Source: Lachnospiraceae bacterium (GTDB lineage Bacteria > Bacillota > Clostridia > Lachnospirales > Lachnospiraceae). Taken from it: a stretch of DNA of 48,493 nucleotides. Below are positions 295-48,493 of the stretch, piece by piece. Location of the stretch: positions 1 to 48,493 of the forward strand of contig JAFSIS010000061.1 of the NCBI GenBank assembly GCA_017439665.1. The letters run 5' to 3'. Each line of letters starts with the position of its first letter. The first letter of the stretch is position 1. Below the pieces are notes generated by a model. That model was not told where the DNA came from. It saw only the letters and a program-made list of their open reading frames with translations, and did not search any database. A program made the position numbers and the translations under genes.

Positions 295-580
295 AAAAAA
301 AGTCGCCTCCTTTTCGCACTTTTAATTGATAAGTACGACAAGCGGTGACTGTACACTCTCCCGTGTGTGTCCTATGAAAAATTTCAATGCAGGTCGGGTT
401 ATTCCTGCTCCTTTTCACAGTCCGTCCAGTGCTGTAAACCCGGACCTCACACGTTCTGCTATGTTTGTACAGTGACTTGTCGTCAGATTCTTAAAGCCTT
501 GCGGCTTTCTTGACATTCGCTCCACGGAAAAACCTGCCGGCAGGCAGCAACCTCACGCTTCACAGCTATCATGCCACAGC
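295..580 (-). ncRNA. structured leader of rpsJ, candidate ribosomal-protein autoregulatory RNA
   Basis: Nested complementary blocks close on one another. Positions 337-354 can pair with 467-481 (GACAAG..GTGACTGTAC against GTACAGTGACTTGTC). Positions 362-372 (CGTGTG.GTCC) pair with 442-453 (GGACCTCACACG). An inner hairpin GCAGG/CCTGC lies at 389-408. A separate small hairpin AAAGCC..GGCTTT is at about 497-512. Leaders before the S10 operon are known to be targets of r-protein feedback in several bacteria. I see no obvious terminator, so control of translation or a long-range fold is more likely. The fold is inferred by eye. Confidence 0.5.
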
Positions 581-587
581 AATTAGT

Positions 588-616
588 AGTATAGCGAAAC
601 TTTTCTGCCTTGGCAA
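588..616 (-). promoter_or_regulatory. promoter of the rpsJ operon
   Basis: On the minus strand TTGCCA (611-616) and TATACT (588-593) are separated by exactly 17 bases. Transcription would start near 580, giving a leader of about 285 nucleotides before rpsJ. The hexamers are seen; their use as a promoter is inferred. Confidence 0.75.
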
Positions 617-688
617 GGAAAATTTCGCTATTTCTAAAATTCATATTGTATTTTTTTTAATACAATCCAGAATCCGCAGTCTGTCCAT

Positions 689-858
689 TTATAATAGGAA
701 GATAATCCCACAGAGGAAAAGTCCACCGATCACACAGGCAAAGGCAAGGGAAAGGGCCACCCAGATAAAGTGTCCTGAATGCTATGGAAGAAATCCCGTG
801 AAGTCGAAAAATGTGCTGTGGTTACGCGCAAACTGAATGAAAATGTCTCCCTGTTCAA
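689..858 (-). pseudogene. possible decayed small membrane-protein gene
   Basis: Between the rpsJ promoter and the methyltransferase gene no intact gene is visible. On the minus strand one frame ends with a convincing hydrophobic helix (HFIWVALSLAFACVIG, then GGLFLCGIIFLL and a stop at 689-691). That frame has no start codon and meets a TAG just upstream, while the neighbouring frame carries a basic stretch from TTG at 858. This would fit a frameshifted remnant of a short membrane protein. It could also be chance composition. A 26-base T-rich tract precedes it. Confidence 0.22.
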
Positions 859-877
859 AGTATGATTGGTGTCACCA

Positions 878-907
878 TTGACAAAGAGACTTAATTATTG
901 TTAATAT
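878..907 (+). promoter_or_regulatory. promoter of the methyltransferase gene
   Basis: TTGACA at 878-883 and TAATAT at 902-907 with an 18-base spacer (or TTAATA with 17). The start site would fall near 913, just ahead of a hairpin at 928-953. Confidence 0.6.
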
Positions 908-927
908 GTAGCTATTCAGGACAAGGG

Positions 928-953
928 GCTGCTGCAAAACTTTTTGCAGCAGC
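928..953 (+). promoter_or_regulatory. strong hairpin in the 5' leader of the methyltransferase gene
   Basis: GCTGCTGCAAAA at 928-939 and TTTTGCAGCAGC at 942-953 form a perfect 12-bp stem with a minimal loop, followed by TCTTTT. It lies directly after the inferred transcription start and before GAGAAAGGAT, the ribosome binding site. It resembles an attenuator or leftover terminator; the T-run is short. Confidence 0.45.
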
Positions 954-981
954 TCTTTTGGAGAAAGGATAGGGATTCATT

Positions 982-1845
982 ATGTGGATTGCTGATGGTT
1001 GGAAGGACTATGAGGTACTGGATACCTCCTCGGGAGAAAAGCTGGAAAGGTGGGGAAAATATCTGTTAGTCAGACCCGATCCCCAGGTCATTTGGAGTAC
1101 CCCTAAGACAAACCCCGGATGGAAGAAAAAAAACGGGCATTACCATAGAAGTAATGCCGGTGGCGGAGAGTGGGAATTCTTTCACCTTCCTCAGGAATGG
1201 AGTATCCACTATAAGGAGCTGACTTTCAACCTGAAGCCCTTCAGCTTCAAGCATACCGGTCTTTTCCCGGAACAGGCTGCCAATTGGGACTGGTTTGGCA
1301 ATCTGATCAAAAAGGCCAACCGCCCCGTTAAGGTTCTCAATCTTTTTGCTTATACCGGCGGCGCTACATTATCCGCTGCAGCTGCAGGAGCCAGCGTGAC
1401 CCACGTAGATGCTTCAAAAGGTATGGTTACCTGGGCCAAAGAAAATGCAGCCTCTTCCGGTCTTTCGGATCGTCCTGTAAGATGGCTGGTTGACGACTGT
1501 GTGAAATTTGTGGAAAGAGAACTCCGCCGTGGCAACACCTATGATGCCATTATCATGGATCCTCCTTCTTATGGGCGGGGGCCCAAAGGAGAAATATGGA
1601 AGATTGAAGAAAGCATCTTTCCTTTTCTTCAGCTGACTACAAAGCTGCTCTCCGACGATCCTCTGTTTTTCCTCATTAACTCCTATACTACAGGTCTGCA
1701 GCCTGCCGTCCTGTCCTATATGATTCACGAGACTGTCTGCAGGAAATTGGGCGGAAAGGTTGAATCATCTGAAATCGGACTGCCTGTCAGAGAAAATGGA
1801 CTAATCCTTCCCTGCGGTGCCAGCGGACGCTGGACTGCAGAATAG
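982..1845 (+). CDS. class I SAM-dependent methyltransferase, RlmI-like (rRNA or other nucleic-acid target)
   Basis: The 287-residue protein has a Rossmann-type SAM site around 117-150 (LNLFAYTGGATLSAAAAGA, then VTHVDASKGMVTWAKENA) and the catalytic DPPSYGRG motif near 194. This DPPSYG form is typical of the COG1092 family (RlmI/RlmK, 23S rRNA cytosine or guanine methyltransferases). It lacks the N-terminal PUA domain of RlmI, so the exact target is uncertain. ATG at 982 follows GAGAAAGGATAGGG. It is transcribed alone from a promoter at 878-907 and ends before a bidirectional terminator. A DNA or protein target cannot be excluded, but the motif order favours RNA. Confidence 0.85.
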   Translation: MWIADGWKDYEVLDTSSGEKLERWGKYLLVRPDPQVIWSTPKTNPGWKKKNGHYHRSNAGGGEWEFFHLPQEWSIHYKELTFNLKPFSFKHTGLFPEQAANWDWFGNLIKKANRPVKVLNLFAYTGGATLSAAAAGASVTHVDASKGMVTWAKENAASSGLSDRPVRWLVDDCVKFVERELRRGNTYDAIIMDPPSYGRGPKGEIWKIEESIFPFLQLTTKLLSDDPLFFLINSYTTGLQPAVLSYMIHETVCRKLGGKVESSEIGLPVRENGLILPCGASGRWTAE

Positions 1846-1871
1846 ACTTTTTCAAAAAAGATAAACGCACA

Positions 1872-1898
1872 AAAAGGACTTCCCCGTGGAGTCCTTTT
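1872..1898. terminator. bidirectional terminator between methyltransferase and HAD genes
   Basis: AAAAGGACT (1872-1880) pairs with AGTCCTTTT (1890-1898). A T-run follows on the plus strand and an A-run precedes it, so the hairpin can stop both convergent units. Confidence 0.85.
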
Positions 1899-1918
1899 CT
1901 TTTTAAGTGATTGGTAAT

Positions 1919-2587
1919 TTAATTGGGGATTTCGATGTCCAGCCATTCCATTCGAAATTCGGTAAAATCACGAATGACATAGCCAGCACCGGCATGAATC
2001 AAATCATTTTTAACGGAATCTGTCCCTACCCCCACGATCATTCCCGCTCCATTACTTTTTGCGTGTGAAATCGCACTCAGGCTGTCTTCCACCACTATAC
2101 ATTTTGAAAGGGTAACACCCAGCCGTTTTGCAGCTTCCACATGCATCTTCCCCTTGTCTGCATAACTTCCATCGTCATAAACACACTGTTTTTGATCGAA
2201 CCAGCGGTTCAAACCAAACTGTCGGAAGTAGAATTCTATATTCTCCTGTATGGAAGCACTGGCCAAAATAAAAGGAACCTGACGCTCCTTTAACTCTCCA
2301 AGCAGCCTTTCGGCTCCGGACACCAGATGTACTTTATCAGCATTTTGAAGACAGATCTGCCGATAGAGCGCTTCCTTTTTCTGAGAATAGATATCCCTTT
2401 CTTCAGGTGTAAGCCATGGCGCCATTTTTTGAATGATCTCATCATTTCGTGGTCCACAGTAAAAACTGCTTCCCGGTTCATTATCCGTATTTTCACAAAG
2501 CTCTCTGTATATTTTGCCCCAGGCTTCCAGATGGAAGCCTGAGTCAAAAAATAGAGTACCATTAAAATCAAGGAGTACTGCTTTCAT
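1919..2587 (-). CDS. HAD-superfamily phosphatase / beta-phosphoglucomutase-like hydrolase
   Basis: About 222 residues. Motif I is DFNGTLFF near the N-terminus, with the first aspartate of the usual DxDGT but asparagine at the second acidic position. Motif II is ILASAS, followed by a lysine in the GKMHVEAAKRLG stretch, and motif III is VVEDSLSA. The pattern fits subfamily IA phosphatases and mutases acting on sugar phosphates. DxN rather than DxD suggests altered or weak catalysis, or phosphonatase-like chemistry. I chose ATG at 2587, five bases after the EIID stop; a GTG at 2620 inside the EIID gene is an alternative. It is the last gene of the PTS block and probably dephosphorylates or isomerises a sugar phosphate from that pathway. 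Confidence 0.8.
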   Translation of the reverse strand: MKAVLLDFNGTLFFDSGFHLEAWGKIYRELCENTDNEPGSSFYCGPRNDEIIQKMAPWLTPEERDIYSQKKEALYRQICLQNADKVHLVSGAERLLGELKERQVPFILASASIQENIEFYFRQFGLNRWFDQKQCVYDDGSYADKGKMHVEAAKRLGVTLSKCIVVEDSLSAISHAKSNGAGMIVGVGTDSVKNDLIHAGAGYVIRDFTEFRMEWLDIEIPN

Positions 2588-2591
2588 CTTC

Positions 2592-3428
2592 TTAGAAGAG
2601 TCCGATGAAAGGAAGAGCACCTACAAGACCGATAACAATCAGTAAAATAATACATTTAACAGGTGTCCAGCCTTTCTTCTTTAATAAGAAATAAAGCAGC
2701 AAAGTGAAGAATAAAGGAATCATCTTGGGAAGAACACCGTCCAGAATACTCTGGATTACGATAGGACTGTCACCATTAGCGATTTCCAGTTTTACGGTAG
2801 TTCCGCCATAGTTGGAGGTCAATGCACCTACGATAAATACACCCAGCATAGAAGCTGCACGGGTAAATTCCTTTGCGTTTTTGGTAAGAAGCTCGATTGC
2901 CTTGGTTCCCAACTGGTAGGACCAGTTCATCAGCCAGAAACGAACCAAAAACTGTACCAGGTTGAAGATTACAAGGAACAGGATCGGACCGGCTATAGAT
3001 CCGCCAATGGCCATATTCGATGTAATACCTGCAGTGATCGGAACCAGAGTGAACCAGAAAATAGCATCTCCGATACCACCCAGAGGTCCCATGGCAGCAA
3101 CACGCACCGCACGGATCGTGTTGATGTCAGCCTTCTGCTGCTCTAAGGATAATACGATACCCATTACGAAGGTTACCAGGAAAGGATGGGTATTGAAGAA
3201 CTCCAGGTTGTGCTGCATGGAAGCAGATAAATCATCTTTATTGGTGTGGATCTTCTCCAGACCGGGCAAGATGGAGTACAACCATCCATTAGCCTGCATT
3301 CTTTCATAGTTGAAGGAACCCTGTAAGTTACAGGAACGCCATACCATCTTATTAAGAGTTGCTTTGTCAAGTGGCTGAGCCGGTGTTAAATCTTTGTACT
3401 GTAATGCATTAGATGCCATCTTCGTCAC
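2592..3428 (-). CDS. PTS mannose/galactosamine-family EIID component
   Basis: 278 residues starting MTKMASNALQYKDLTPAQPL. It carries the EIID hallmarks: WRSCNLQGSFNYERMQANGW near the N-terminus, a long cytoplasmic part with GPLGGIGDAIFW, and C-terminal membrane segments ending PFIGLF. With EIIC it forms the membrane translocator of mannose-family PTS (Man, Aga, Sor, hyaluronan disaccharide types). The gene overlaps the end of the EIIC gene by 20 bases, indicating translational coupling. The subfamily substrate cannot be read from EIID alone; the neighbouring agaS- and nagA-like genes suggest an N-acetylated or free hexosamine. Confidence 0.93.
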   Translation of the reverse strand: MTKMASNALQYKDLTPAQPLDKATLNKMVWRSCNLQGSFNYERMQANGWLYSILPGLEKIHTNKDDLSASMQHNLEFFNTHPFLVTFVMGIVLSLEQQKADINTIRAVRVAAMGPLGGIGDAIFWFTLVPITAGITSNMAIGGSIAGPILFLVIFNLVQFLVRFWLMNWSYQLGTKAIELLTKNAKEFTRAASMLGVFIVGALTSNYGGTTVKLEIANGDSPIVIQSILDGVLPKMIPLFFTLLLYFLLKKKGWTPVKCIILLIVIGLVGALPFIGLF

Positions 3429-4221
3429 CTCCTGTAGATCCTGCTCCTAATCCGGCAGATTTCATTGCTGTACGTGTCTGGAAGTCATACAGAGCAATTG
3501 CAATACCAACGAATGCAATCAAGAGTAATGCGGAACCACCCAGACCATCAATGTAACCGATAACGGTTGCCAGAGCAAAGCCTGCAAAATAGATTCCCCA
3601 AAGGTCGTTGGAAAGCATCATTCTAAGTAAGATAGCGAAACCTACGTAACGCATCATACCGCCTGCTGCACTTAAGCCGTTCATGATCCATGCATACTTT
3701 TCAGAAATAGCGGTCAGGGTATCGCCAAGTGCGTTACCACCGATAAGACCGGCTACACAAACAAGACCGAATAAAAGACCCAAAGCTGCCATAGCCAGCC
3801 AGTTGATCCGAACAATACCCTTGGTATCTGCGTTCTCTGCACACTTGTCAGAAAGAGACATTACGGGAGACATTACGGTAAACAATAAGGTTACCATGTA
3901 CTGACCGATCAAAGCGAAAGGTACTGCAAGACCTACTGCTGCAGAAGGGTCAAGGTTAGAAGAAATGGCAAATACGGTTGCCATGATACCACCGATAACC
4001 GCGTTCGGAGGCTGAGCACCACCTACCGGCATGTTACCGATTGTCATTAACTGGTATGTACCACCAACGATAAGACCGGTCTGTAAATCACCGAGAATAG
4101 CACCGATAATAGCACCGGTTACGATGGGCTGGTACAGAGATTCCAATAAGTCAAACTGGTCAATCGCAACGATAAACGAAACGATGAACACCAGGATAAT
4201 CTGAATTGCATTAAAATCCAT
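3409..4221 (-). CDS. PTS mannose/galactosamine-family EIIC component
   Basis: 270 residues, hydrophobic almost throughout, starting MDFNAIQIILVFIVSFIVAI. The family sequence GAIIGAILGDLQTGLIVGGTYQLMTIG, which lines the sugar path, is at about 37-65 and is followed by PVGGAQPPNA. It forms the transmembrane permease with EIID. The gene lies 37 bases after EIIB and runs into EIID. Its acidic C-terminus (GGDEDGI) is coded within the overlap. As with EIID, the substrate is inferred only from the neighbours. Confidence 0.93.
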   Translation of the reverse strand: MDFNAIQIILVFIVSFIVAIDQFDLLESLYQPIVTGAIIGAILGDLQTGLIVGGTYQLMTIGNMPVGGAQPPNAVIGGIMATVFAISSNLDPSAAVGLAVPFALIGQYMVTLLFTVMSPVMSLSDKCAENADTKGIVRINWLAMAALGLLFGLVCVAGLIGGNALGDTLTAISEKYAWIMNGLSAAGGMMRYVGFAILLRMMLSNDLWGIYFAGFALATVIGYIDGLGGSALLLIAFVGIAIALYDFQTRTAMKSAGLGAGSTGGDEDGI

Positions 4222-4258
4222 AATTGTTCTAATCTCCTTTCCACTGATGTAAACTTAC

Positions 4259-4735
4259 TTACTTGAACAATTTGTCAATGTTCTCTGCGGCTTCAGACGG
4301 AACTCTTCTGATTTCGAGTTCAACACCCAGGTCGCGTAATTTTGCAAATGCAGCTACGTCAGCATCATCTACTGCAACCGATCCGGCTACCTGACGCTTT
4401 CCGTCTGCCATGTGCATATTACCAATATTCACTTTTTTGATCGGCACACCGCCTTCCACCAGCTTCAATACATCCTGGGGATTCTCACATACAATGAAAA
4501 TCAACTGCTTGTCAGATGCTTTGTGGATGGTGGAAATCGTCTTCTCAAGGGTCCAGTAACGCATAGATGCGTAGCTGGGAGCAGCCATGTCCATCAGGCC
4601 CTGACGAAGTGTGTTTCCTGCTACTTCATCATTAGCTACCAGAATGAGGTTTGCACCAATACTTCCACACCATTGTGTTGCTACCTGACCGTGAACCAGA
4701 CGGTTGTCGATTCGTGTTAAAACGATATTAGGCAT
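4259..4735 (-). CDS. PTS mannose/galactosamine-family EIIB component
   Basis: 158 residues. The phosphorylated histidine is His15 in RIDNRLVHGQVATQW, the hallmark of mannose-family EIIB. It accepts phosphate from EIIA and passes it to the incoming sugar. It is a stand-alone domain, not fused to EIIA as in E. coli ManX; the likely partner EIIA is coded 3 kb away at 7738-8172. ATG at 4735 follows AAGGAGGGAAAA. First gene of the EIIB-EIIC-EIID-HAD block, divergent from the AraC regulator. Confidence 0.94.
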   Translation of the reverse strand: MPNIVLTRIDNRLVHGQVATQWCGSIGANLILVANDEVAGNTLRQGLMDMAAPSYASMRYWTLEKTISTIHKASDKQLIFIVCENPQDVLKLVEGGVPIKKVNIGNMHMADGKRQVAGSVAVDDADVAAFAKLRDLGVELEIRRVPSEAAENIDKLFK

Positions 4736-45798: not shown

Positions 45799-47511
45799 CT
45801 ACAATCTCTGCAATTCCTCCATCATCGCCGGTCTGTTCCGATACTGCTGCTTCCAGTCATCGACTATCCTTTCTACAACCTTCGTACCATCCTTTATTTT
45901 TTTCATAGTTCGGAGCAGACCAACTAACTCCTGATATTTTTTTCTGGTTCCTGTATAAGCGGCCATCTGCCTTACTTCTTTCTCATACTTTGCCAGTATC
46001 TGCCTGGGATAATCCTTTTTCAGCACACTACCGTATTCCTGCAATGCATATAAGCCCGGGCTGTTCACCACATGCGTAAGCAGCCGATCATACAGTTTTT
46101 CTTCCTGATAAAATCGCTCTATCCGTACATACTTAGGAAGGCTTTGAAATACGACCTCCCGTTTTTCAATCCACTCAACCGGTTCATACTGCTTTTTCAA
46201 TTCTCTGTAATCTTCCAGACTACCCGCATGATCCTCCAGCACCAGCTTCCATAGCTGTTTAAGATAGGCTTCTTTATTTCCCTGCAGCAGATATATTTCT
46301 TTCTTCTTTTGGCTGTAATCAGCTATTAATCCTCTGTACTCCTTATCCTTTATCATGCTTTCATCCAAAGCTTCCAGGGCTGCATCATAGTTTTTCTTCT
46401 TTATACATCTGTCTATATAATATCTTCGCACAGATGAGTTTCCCCAGTTTTTCCTACAATATGTTTCTATTTCCTTCTGGCTGCTTTTTTGTGCTTCCAT
46501 CAGTTCCAAATGCCGTATTGCCCATTTCCCAACATGATAGTCTCTGCTCCAATCAGAGCCCTTGTCTCCTGACCTTTCTATCATCTCTTCCGTGAAAACC
46601 AGCTTTTTCTGCACATATTCATTTTCCCCGAACTCTTCCATAATGATCTGCTCAATATACTCTTCCAGATAATTGATCACCGAACCATCTAAATGACTTG
46701 TAAACCATTGAAACATTTTTTCTTTTTGATCTTCTGTAACCTTCGCAAGCAGATCTAACCAGAGCTGATATGCATGATCTGCCAACATGCCTGTACCGCC
46801 ATCCGAGTCATCCATATCCACATCGCCCACCAGTACAAAGATGTAGTTTATCAACTCAAATGCCCCCATGTACTGCCCCTTATCGATCATGCGGCGTACA
46901 TCTGTATCATAAATATCCTCCAGCTCAGAGATAAAATCTCCGGCAGCATAATAGTTGATAAACCGGTCTCTGCCCATATGGCGGTCTGCAATATCGTTTA
47001 CCTGCCGGATATAATGTTTCATATCTTCTTTTTCAGAATTCACACCGATCAGGCTTGTAAAACGAACCAGCAGTTTTTCATCCTCCGCCAAAATTCCTGT
47101 CAAATACTCACGTACGGTATCCATATCTGCCTGATCTACAATCTTTCTGATCGCTGCCTGCTTCTGTTCATATGCTTTTACCGTATGTCCCCTGCCAAAC
47201 ACATTTACAGCTTCTCCATGACTCTCTTCATCACCTGAAGTATCTTCCTTTTCCTGATCAGACCATTCATAAAGTACGGCAGCCATGTGTTTGCAGTTTC
47301 TTCCATCCTCCGCGTAGGGACAGGAACAGTACATCTCTGTAACTTTGCCATGTAAAAGATTTATCTCTACCTCATACTCCTCACTTCCTATCACATCCGC
47401 ACAGATAAAATCTTCATCTACATCCAGATTCTCTACTGCACCCTCACAATAATAATCATACCCTCTGGCGAGGATATGGCTTTCAAACAGCTTTTTCCAA
47501 TTCATACGCAT
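45799..47511 (-). CDS. SWIM zinc-finger protein
   Basis: 570 residues. The SWIM zinc motif CxCxnCxH is at 62-75 (CSCPYAEDGRNCKHMAAVL), after the usual RGYDYYCEGAVENLDVDEDFICADVIGSEEYEV start. The rest is all-helical repeat-like sequence (for instance NYDAALEALDESMIKDKEYRGL, EKYEKEVRQMAAYTG), resembling TPR-type arrays. SWIM proteins bind DNA or proteins; many are coded near SNF2 helicases, but none is adjacent here. It has its own promoter at 47547-47575. Function unknown. Confidence 0.85.
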   Translation of the reverse strand: MRMNWKKLFESHILARGYDYYCEGAVENLDVDEDFICADVIGSEEYEVEINLLHGKVTEMYCSCPYAEDGRNCKHMAAVLYEWSDQEKEDTSGDEESHGEAVNVFGRGHTVKAYEQKQAAIRKIVDQADMDTVREYLTGILAEDEKLLVRFTSLIGVNSEKEDMKHYIRQVNDIADRHMGRDRFINYYAAGDFISELEDIYDTDVRRMIDKGQYMGAFELINYIFVLVGDVDMDDSDGGTGMLADHAYQLWLDLLAKVTEDQKEKMFQWFTSHLDGSVINYLEEYIEQIIMEEFGENEYVQKKLVFTEEMIERSGDKGSDWSRDYHVGKWAIRHLELMEAQKSSQKEIETYCRKNWGNSSVRRYYIDRCIKKKNYDAALEALDESMIKDKEYRGLIADYSQKKKEIYLLQGNKEAYLKQLWKLVLEDHAGSLEDYRELKKQYEPVEWIEKREVVFQSLPKYVRIERFYQEEKLYDRLLTHVVNSPGLYALQEYGSVLKKDYPRQILAKYEKEVRQMAAYTGTRKKYQELVGLLRTMKKIKDGTKVVERIVDDWKQQYRNRPAMMEELQRL

Positions 47512-47546
47512 TTTCTCACTTTTCTGAAGTCAGGTACCAGGTTCCT

Positions 47547-47575
47547 GTTGTAATTTCGACGAAAGAATCTGTCAA
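47547..47575 (-). promoter_or_regulatory. promoter of the SWIM gene
   Basis: TTGACA (47570-47575) and TACAAC (47547-47552) on the minus strand with a 17-base spacer, about 35 bases before the start codon. Confidence 0.7.
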
Positions 47576-47755
47576 AATTATGATATCATACGCCATTGAA
47601 CATTCTCAATGTAAAATTAATGTCACAAGCCTTTTTAGCATCTATTTTCAAGCAAAAAAGGTTCTCCTTTACTGGAAATCCCCATAAAATCAATATAATT
47701 TTTAATTATTCTACGATAGTAGCAACACAACTATCAACATCACGATTGAATATTT
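47576..47755. other. AT-rich spacer, possible 3' remnant of the broken SIR2-like gene
   Basis: No complete gene. On the minus strand a short frame (EIFNRDVDSCVATIVE, then stop at about 47711) directly follows the palindromic element and may be the C-terminal remnant of an interrupted gene. The remainder shows nothing I can support. Confidence 0.3.
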
Positions 47756-47827
47756 CTAGTGTGCTGACACGTTGATTTTTGATATAACAGTACTGTTATA
47801 CTGATTATCAATGTGTCAGTATACTAG
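47756..47827. mobile_element. 72-bp MITE-like palindrome beside the SIR2-like remnant
   Basis: Ends CTAGTGTGCTGACACGTTGAT (47756-47776, shown shortened in the reading) and ATCAATGTGTCAGTATACTAG (47807-47827) pair with three mismatches. The centre is a perfect 18-base palindrome, TATAACAGTACTGTTATA (47783-47800). The inverted ends include ATACTGACACATTGA, also found in the tandem repeat at 31071-31130. It lies exactly where the SIR2-like reading frame is lost, as expected for an insertion or deletion scar. Confidence 0.65.
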
Positions 47828-47999
47828 GATTATTTGATATAAAAATTTTGCACTTCCAATCCCAAATACATTCTTGTGCTGAGGGAAGACCTCACTCTAC
47901 AGAAGCTCCTGCCCCTAACAAAAATGAATACTGCGCATTACTATTCTGTGCAACAGAACGTAAAAACTCATCAAATTGCAATATGTTTTCTGTTATCAT
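47808..47999 (-). pseudogene. 5' fragment of a SIR2-like gene with an in-frame stop
   Basis: ATG 47999, behind GGAAGGTGAATAT, reads MITENILQFDEFLRSVAQNS and then NAQYSFLLGAGASVE before TGA at 47892-47894. The same frame continues GLPSAQECIWDWKCKIFISNN, so the intact text would be GAGASVxSGLPSAQECIWDWK, a SIR2-family NAD-binding start like those of anti-phage SIR2 effectors. A TCA-to-TGA change would explain the stop. Sequence is lost in the palindromic element soon after, so nothing of the enzyme can be made. It follows the Arm-domain gene by four bases, as in an operon. Confidence 0.7.
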
Positions 48000-48003
48000 A
48001 TAT

Positions 48004-48159
48004 TCACCTTCCCACATTTAATTTCTTTTGTCGCTCATACTCAAGAGCTTCACGCTTTGTCTCAAAACCCCTTTTTCTTCGCTTTTTCTTTTCGCCCTTG
48101 GCATTTGTTTCAAACCATTGGGCTGTCCATTTCTTTGTGTCTTTCTCCTTATACGCCAT
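48004..48159 (-). CDS. stand-alone Arm (AP2-like) DNA-binding domain of an integrase
   Basis: 51 residues: MAYKEKDTKKWTAQWFETNA then KGEKKKRRKRGFETKREALE and YERQKKLNVGR. This is the N-terminal Arm-type DNA-binding domain of tyrosine recombinases, with the three-strand W-x-A-x-W/F pattern, basic turn and FxTKREALEYE helix; the core-binding and catalytic domains are absent. The start ATG 48159 has GAAAGGAAGGACATT and a consensus promoter at 48264-48292, so it looks expressed as a small protein. It could be a remnant, or an accessory DNA-binding protein of the island. The next gene overlaps its ribosome binding region. Confidence 0.75.
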   Translation of the reverse strand: MAYKEKDTKKWTAQWFETNAKGEKKKRRKRGFETKREALEYERQKKLNVGR

Positions 48160-48245
48160 AATGTCCTTCCTTTCCTTAATTTGCCATATATTCGTCCTCC
48201 CTTCTTCATTTCTAATTTCGTTACATCTCTTGTATTTTGTTTGTG

Positions 48246-48402
48246 TACGAATTTCGTAAACTTATATTAACGCCATATCTTTTCTTTGTCAACACTTCGT
48301 AAAATAATTTTTACGGTTTTCGTAAATATTATTTTTTGTAATTCCCTCTTTTATGTTTTTCGTAAATGTGGTATTATGGATATTGTAATTATGTTTTTCG
48401 TA
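48246..48402. promoter_or_regulatory. divergent promoter region with array of TTTCGTAAA operator-like sites
   Basis: For the minus strand TTGACA (48287-48292) and TAATAT (48264-48269) lie 17 bases apart. Around them are TACGAA-T-TTCGTA (48246-48258), a half-site CTTCGTAAA (about 48296-48304), the inverted repeat TTTACG-GTTTT-CGTAAA (48310-48326), and TTTTCGTAAA at 48357-48366 and TTTTCGTA near 48395-48402. The spread over both promoters suggests repression by the divergent XRE protein. A possible -10 for it is TATTAT at 48372-48377. Confidence 0.78.
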
Positions 48403-48434
48403 TTTTTTCTATGTATGAATATAGGAGGTTGCTC

Positions 48435-48493
48435 ATGGGCGATGGAAAGAAATTAAAAGAACACATTGATAACAAAGGTACCAATGTGCGTAA
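48435..48493 (+). CDS. XRE-type regulator (only the first residues in window)
   Basis: ATG 48435 follows ATAGGAGGTTGCTC. The visible part, MGDGKKLKEHIDNKGTNVR, matches the first helix and turn of short phage-type XRE repressors (LKExIxxKGxxVRxIA). Only 19 codons are present, so the call rests on this start, the strong ribosome binding site and the operator-like array upstream. Confidence 0.6.
   Translation, partial: MGDGKKLKEHIDNKGTNVR

Follow-up and report, generated by a model that had tools for sequence, protein, structure and literature searches.

Does the end of this contig hold a new two-gene defence unit, or the relic of a mobile element? The window, meaning the whole stretch of DNA that was analysed, is the entire contig G000:C34 (48,493 nt) of a draft genome in 87 contigs that is 89% complete, and position 48493 is therefore an assembly end. 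The earlier note had placed the edge of an XRE-controlled island here and proposed that an Arm-domain peptide and a SIR2-like gene form an operon behind a phage-like control region. We consider it very probable that 47631-48493 is instead a remnant of a family of integrative mobilizable elements (IMEs) found at the 3' end of tuf, with the xis-like gene down to three codons, the integrase gene cut after its Arm domain, and a broken fragment, probably from a fused SIR2-APAZ-pAgo defence gene, between the integrase stub and a tuf-type core. The window end is likely an ordinary genomic relic and not a new defence system. Legible in the DNA itself are the XRE start, a site array and a promoter-like site, all of them also present in intact relatives, a 183-bp gap, the integrase stub, the SIR2 fragment and its stop, a palindrome, a core, and a stretch resembling an IME left end. 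From the contig end inwards, the features are as follows (loci of relatives carry the prefix L):

48435 to 48493, plus strand: start of the XRE repressor gene, running off the contig end; aligned to the 160-aa XRE gene of L003, L004, L017 and L049
48252 to 48404, no strand: array of TTTCGTAAA-type sites, exact and looser, likely XRE operators
48264 to 48292, minus strand: promoter-like TTGACA-17-TAATAT reading towards xis/int, predicted by consensus alone
48176 to 48187, minus strand: what is left of the xis-like gene, namely three codons with a stop; intact relatives have 183 bp more
48004 to 48159, minus strand: integrase stub (the 'Arm' ORF), 51 aa; homology to an integrase of about 358 aa covers 48016-48159, codons 1-48
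47892 to 47999, minus strand: SIR2-type gene, first 35 codons to an in-frame stop; PADLOC pAgo model PDLC02384 at 2.2e-9 for this piece alone
47817 to 47891, minus strand: frame continuing past the stop, still SIR2-like; PDLC02384 at 7e-24 when the two pieces are joined by an X in place of the stop
47757 to 47826, no strand: small palindromic repeat with CTAG at both ends (imperfect palindrome 47749-47834), marking the end of SIR2 homology
47706 to 47726, minus strand: tuf-type attachment core, reading VATIVE-stop like the end of EF-Tu
47631 to 47705, minus strand: 75 bases past the core, resembling an IME left end with terminator; score 46 to L030

The 51-residue Arm ORF is real and matches PF14657 at 3.4e-7, but it is a truncated integrase and not a gene of its own. 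A scan of genome contigs with the Arm peptide gave 61 loci, 50 of which (L002-L050 and L055) form the close family counted here; the other 11 (L051-L054 and L056-L062), more distant integrases or pieces, were left out of these counts. The ORF is 84-98% identical to the integrase starts of the close family, where the tyrosine integrase is near-full in 36 loci, broken in 12 and cut by a contig end in two; XRE is present in 46 of the 50 and the xis-like gene in 47. At a threshold of 1e-8, the peptide matches in three of the 61 nearest genomes, its own included, and in the other two the match opens frames of about 370 residues that are full integrases. At the DNA level, the window agrees with L003, L004 and L017 at 97-98% of positions in the integrase part, where the match ends after integrase codon 48, and at 95.6-96.2% on the XRE side; the xis-like gene is absent between these two blocks. 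Since the XRE/control/Arm stretch is 95-98% identical to these three loci and L049, the match is not due to chance, and common descent with the XRE/xis/int block of the IME family is supported. The edge of an island is borne out. The catalytic domain of the integrase is absent from the window, and because only codons 1-48 are left, we class the element as a remnant and not a working IME.

The Arm ORF was also compared with 115 short Arm proteins from a protein search restricted to near-query lengths, some of which may be contig-end cuts. Their integrase homology breaks at 49 different residues, many have unrelated tails, and none of the 115 shares the last residues of the window's ORF. Arm relatives were found in neither viral contigs nor plasmids; the window end gave two weak partial matches among phage records, on the XRE/integrase side, in unannotated fecal records. 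Under the proposed operon, a stand-alone Arm peptide and a SIR2 effector would be co-transcribed under XRE and broken in this strain only, a reading suggested by the 4-nt spacing of the two frames, which holds, and by their common control region with repeated sites. We regard this as extremely improbable: the ORF is the start of an integrase that is full-length in most of the close family, the junction DNA is absent from viral contigs, and the stretches around the 61 Arm loci contain no SIR2 relative. An intact adjacent Arm-SIR2 pair, whose absence from relatives the earlier note had itself named as the result that would count against its proposal, occurs nowhere in the material searched, and with the pairing at 0 of 61 loci and in 0 of 115 short Arm proteins we rejected the operon. 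A false lead is thereby removed, namely a defence system with a 50-residue Arm protein among its components; such peptides look like integrase stubs rather than a conserved small protein.

On the other side of the stub, the window differs from its relatives by a deletion. The xis-like gene of the relatives encodes 64 residues and lies between XRE and int; its label comes from this position and from weak helix-turn-helix matches, both below Pfam cut-offs. Among the 44 loci in which the XRE start was read, the distance between the XRE and int starts is 438-460 bp in 42, 420 bp in L050 and 368 bp in L039. It is 276 bp in the window, shorter because the 183 bp missing from the DNA alignment hold the xis-like gene except for three codons. 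The edges of the deletion share an 8-bp near-repeat, identical at 7 of 8 positions and so not exact, in the four aligned relatives.

The divergent XRE start and its phage-like control region with repeated sites are present as described, with the gene opening at 48435 on the plus strand. The XRE protein of L003 has helix-turn-helix domains, and no other XRE was found in the window's own assembly. Exact TTTCGTAAA sites begin at 48252, 48318 and 48358, and these are the only three in the window (0.31 expected; none of 100 shuffles reached three). The count of at least four sites given earlier holds if the looser copies at 48295 (one mismatch) and 48396 (two mismatches) are included; the exact sites are just three. 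In 44 relatives, with overlapping forms counted apart and L038, L040, L045, L047, L048 and L055 left out, there are 99 site starts in 11,880 bp of control region against 32 in 388,912 bp elsewhere. Three or more sites occur in 18 of these relatives, one in 20 and none in six, so the exact TTTCGTAAA word is strong in only part of the family. The consensus promoter noted before, TTGACA-17-TAATAT at 48292-48264 on the minus strand, is also present as a promoter-like site, one of seven such sites in the stretch against 4.2 in shuffles. The array around this site is likely the XRE operator set of the xis/int promoter. An Rfam scan of 47000-48493 gave no match.

Behind the stub, the SIR2-like frame has its start codon at 47999 on the minus strand, 4 nt past the Arm stop, and is interrupted by an in-frame TGA after which the frame is open again. 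With X at the stop, its 61 residues match a related SIR2 model of the same PADLOC group at 3e-11 and plain SIR2 at 0.0018, against 7e-24 for PDLC02384; no Pfam or NCBIfam model matched. The continued frame is therefore SIR2-type, and the assignment to a defence family whose gene is broken in this strain, by the TGA and by its end at the palindrome, stands. The SIR2 N-terminal segment of the fused SIR2-APAZ-pAgo family is what is present; the APAZ and MID-PIWI parts are absent from the window.

Relatives of the fragment provide further insight into what the gene may have been. One, in an unannotated fecal record labelled bacteriophage (L066), is 53% identical to the fragment and matches PDLC02384 with 768 bits up to the end of the record. 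A search from the first 300 residues of the L066 protein returned 1350 proteins at 1e-10. Among the 120 matches listed, about 100 are 1041-1056 aa long, three have a Piwi domain, one is named Protein argonaute by a source, and the best are 55-60% identical to the window fragment over 52-60 residues. Because of the pAgo-model match, the L066 relative and these relatives of about 1040 aa, the fragment most probably once opened a fused SIR2-APAZ-pAgo gene.

Relatives of the fragment at E<=1e-6 occur, among 397 family genomes, in its own genome alone, and the pAgo model at 1e-20 matches in 10 of the 397, its own included; one of these (G294) spans nearly the whole model. SIR2 relatives were absent from viral contigs and appear in two plasmid records at 34% and one phage record at 53%. 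No IME genes were found near 14 SIR2/pAgo stretches, many of which are short, and no intact element of the IME family carrying a SIR2-pAgo gene was found. The nearest known system is SPARSA, SIR2-APAZ with a short pAgo, whose SIR2 effector acts in phage defence by depleting NAD+ (PMC10781750). The N-terminal SIR2 of the fragment resembles it in fitting the pAgo-model proteins of about 1040 aa, but in the systems that this source describes SIR2-APAZ and pAgo are two proteins, whereas the relatives of the fragment are fused. The window differs further in keeping about 60 codons, with a stop, and no sensing part of a SPARSA-like protein is left in it.

The promoter-like site, the array and the stub all lead into the SIR2 start at 4-nt spacing. 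A deletion may thus have set a then-intact SIR2-pAgo gene behind the XRE-controlled xis/int promoter, giving a regulated defence gene for a time before decay. This is improbable in our view: no strain was found with the junction and an intact gene, and the stop or the palindrome may have preceded the deletion.

The SIR2 gene does not resume beyond the palindrome, whose arms at 47749-47834 are imperfect, being 77% complementary. Within the same genome, a related full-length copy lies on contig C40, a shorter diverged copy on C7 and half copies on C12, C39 and C3, while none was found in 60 related genomes at 1e-4. The palindrome looks like a small inverted-repeat element in a decaying SIR2 gene, and it resembles palindromic repeats of the MITE-like class. 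The likeness lies in a palindrome of about 70 bp that is bounded by CTAG and recurs, whole or halved, several times in one genome; it differs in that no parent transposase was recognised by eye in the ORFs around the half copies on C39 and C3. These two half copies share further one-sided sequence, as if they were ends of a longer element.

The same repeat bears on whether the junctions are chimeras of metagenome assembly or binning. The genome is a fragmented and incomplete draft, the contig breaks off within a gene belonging to a widespread element, and tuf was not found in the assembly, all of which fit an artefact. We nevertheless judge it very unlikely. Near-identical short repeats bound the xis-like deletion, a common trait of real deletions, and the palindrome copies on other contigs of the same genome, with none in the 60 relatives, tie the region to this genome.

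To place the remnant, we turned to its intact relatives, in which the Lachnospiraceae IME gene order is XRE, xis-like gene, int, AAA ATPase and Mob_Pre relaxase, the relaxase being seen in L035. No relaxase gene lies between XRE and the core in the window. In 32 of the 50 loci, XRE is preceded by the 3' end of tuf (EF-Tu), and in eight more by the core only, so that a tuf end or core stands to the left of the element in 40; neither is in the available stretch of the remaining 10. In L025 and L035 the tuf-end core, made of the last tuf codons, is found at both element ends. The core pattern occurs once in the window, at 47706-47726, on the expected side and strand. A chance tuf-like match at 47706 was rejected by shuffling, as the pattern arose once in 300 block shuffles of the window. 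This is the right-hand att core, and the left side of the element falls beyond the contig end. The residues preceding it are NRDVDSC, against REGGRTVGSGR in most relatives, and L020, L027 and L030 differ too.

The stretch beyond the core, 47631-47705, was scored against IME left ends. The highest of 300 shuffles reached 31, a value that 21 of 42 flanks exceed. Four tuf flanks of further genomes in the family (L106, L108, L112 and L114, which alone of ten fetched fit the core pattern) score 13-19; one of the four, from genome G298, has a second core 3.8 kb on (L120) and is therefore not a bare site. Far-side flanks score 14 in L031 and 17 in L043, against 39 in L025 and 38 in L035. On the simplest reading of these scores, the window core marks where this element meets a second tandem copy that has almost vanished, and the whole is likely an IME remnant in a tandem array. 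Alternatively, these 75 bases could be the tuf terminator of the host itself.

A search for tuf gave nothing in the window's own assembly but succeeded, with an unchanged query, in 10 of 12 other genomes. As it was not found in this assembly, nor in two of the 12 others, a tuf gene beyond 48493 is hypothetical. Chromosomal synteny was also tried as support for a tuf site, and none that was clear emerged from nine tuf-downstream stretches: relatives of just four of the 44 window ORFs occur there, and the best, 982-1845, is 77% identical, is found in two of the nine and lies at the opposite end of the window. The SWIM-domain gene that adjoins the remnant was not found within about 1.5 kb of tuf in 17 relatives. 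None of this counter-evidence revives an Arm-SIR2 system.

Taken as an IME remnant in tandem, the region suggests the following course. Intact elements would integrate at and leave tuf through Int and the xis-like protein under XRE repression, and the window element would have carried a SIR2-pAgo gene as right-end cargo. Deletions would have removed the xis-like gene, between the two near-identical 8-bp repeats, as well as the ATPase, the relaxase and all of int past the stub; the SIR2 gene would have been ended by a stop and the palindromic repeat, and its remainder lost. The core would then join the remnant to another copy in tandem, in a still more advanced state of decay. Of what remains visible, only the XRE regulator might still function, its gene extending past the contig end; the rest is expected to be inactive.

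Decayed elements that have accreted in tandem are described in PMC5704250. With the IMEs and accreted forms treated there, the tuf family shares a site-specific tyrosine integrase, an att core of a gene 3' end, a relaxase (in intact relatives) and decayed tandem copies at the same site. It differs in that int is not the outward-facing end gene, as the ATPase and relaxase come after it. No mention of the tuf 3' end as a site was found in PMC5704250 or in the streptococcal IME survey PMC5357655. A literature search by title and start of abstract, with subscription papers and preprints outside its scope, found no paper on tuf-targeting mobile elements.

The relatives also provide insight into what such elements carry. 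In the 40 loci with a tuf end or core, the gap to XRE is 115-277 bp (an empty slot) in 23 and 1.0-4.3 kb (a filled one) in 17. The PADLOC scan of this cargo covered 12 of the 17 filled loci, with one protein each for L049 and L055, and left out L019, L033, L034, L037 and L041. Seven of the 12 have a match at 1e-5 or better: AbiD in L002 and L025, AbiLi/AriA-like in L017 and L024, a viperin-like model in L026, QueC in L049, and in L014 a methyltransferase with a regulator domain, which may not be defence. L004, L028, L029, L047 and L055 have no PADLOC match at 1e-5. The models matched are in many cases those of broad enzyme families, and likeness to a model does not prove function; at that level, the tuf-XRE slot in relatives appears often to be filled with defence-like genes. 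This makes tuf 3' ends a place to seek unlisted defence cargo in Lachnospiraceae, where the tuf-XRE slot can be read without difficulty.

A wider picture may be sketched, which we hold to be doubtful as a whole. There, a family of small mobile elements would dock at the tuf tail of gut Lachnospiraceae, exchange one phage-defence cassette for another (Abi, AAA-type, viperin-like, QueC-type, Argonaute), accumulate as tandem copies and finally decay. The window would be a spent cartridge in which a deletion wired an Argonaute-type gene to an XRE-controlled excision promoter.

Three further observations concern genes near tuf in relatives. A cassette recurs between tuf and XRE in L019 (1022-5006), L022 (126-2907), L037 (1123-5019) and L049 (1016-4992), alike by ORF lengths of about 125, 447, 214, 220 and 226-251 aa and partial in L022. 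In L019 its 447-aa protein matches nucleoside deoxyribosyltransferase and its 214-aa protein QueC, the other three being without a Pfam match. In L030, the genes at 429-4685, left of the core, include a match to retron III-A phosphoribosyltransferase models (3e-21) and are likely the right end of an upstream tandem element. Directly after tuf in a same-genus genome (L116, 816-2155) lies a candidate AbiE-type toxin-antitoxin pair, read by eye.
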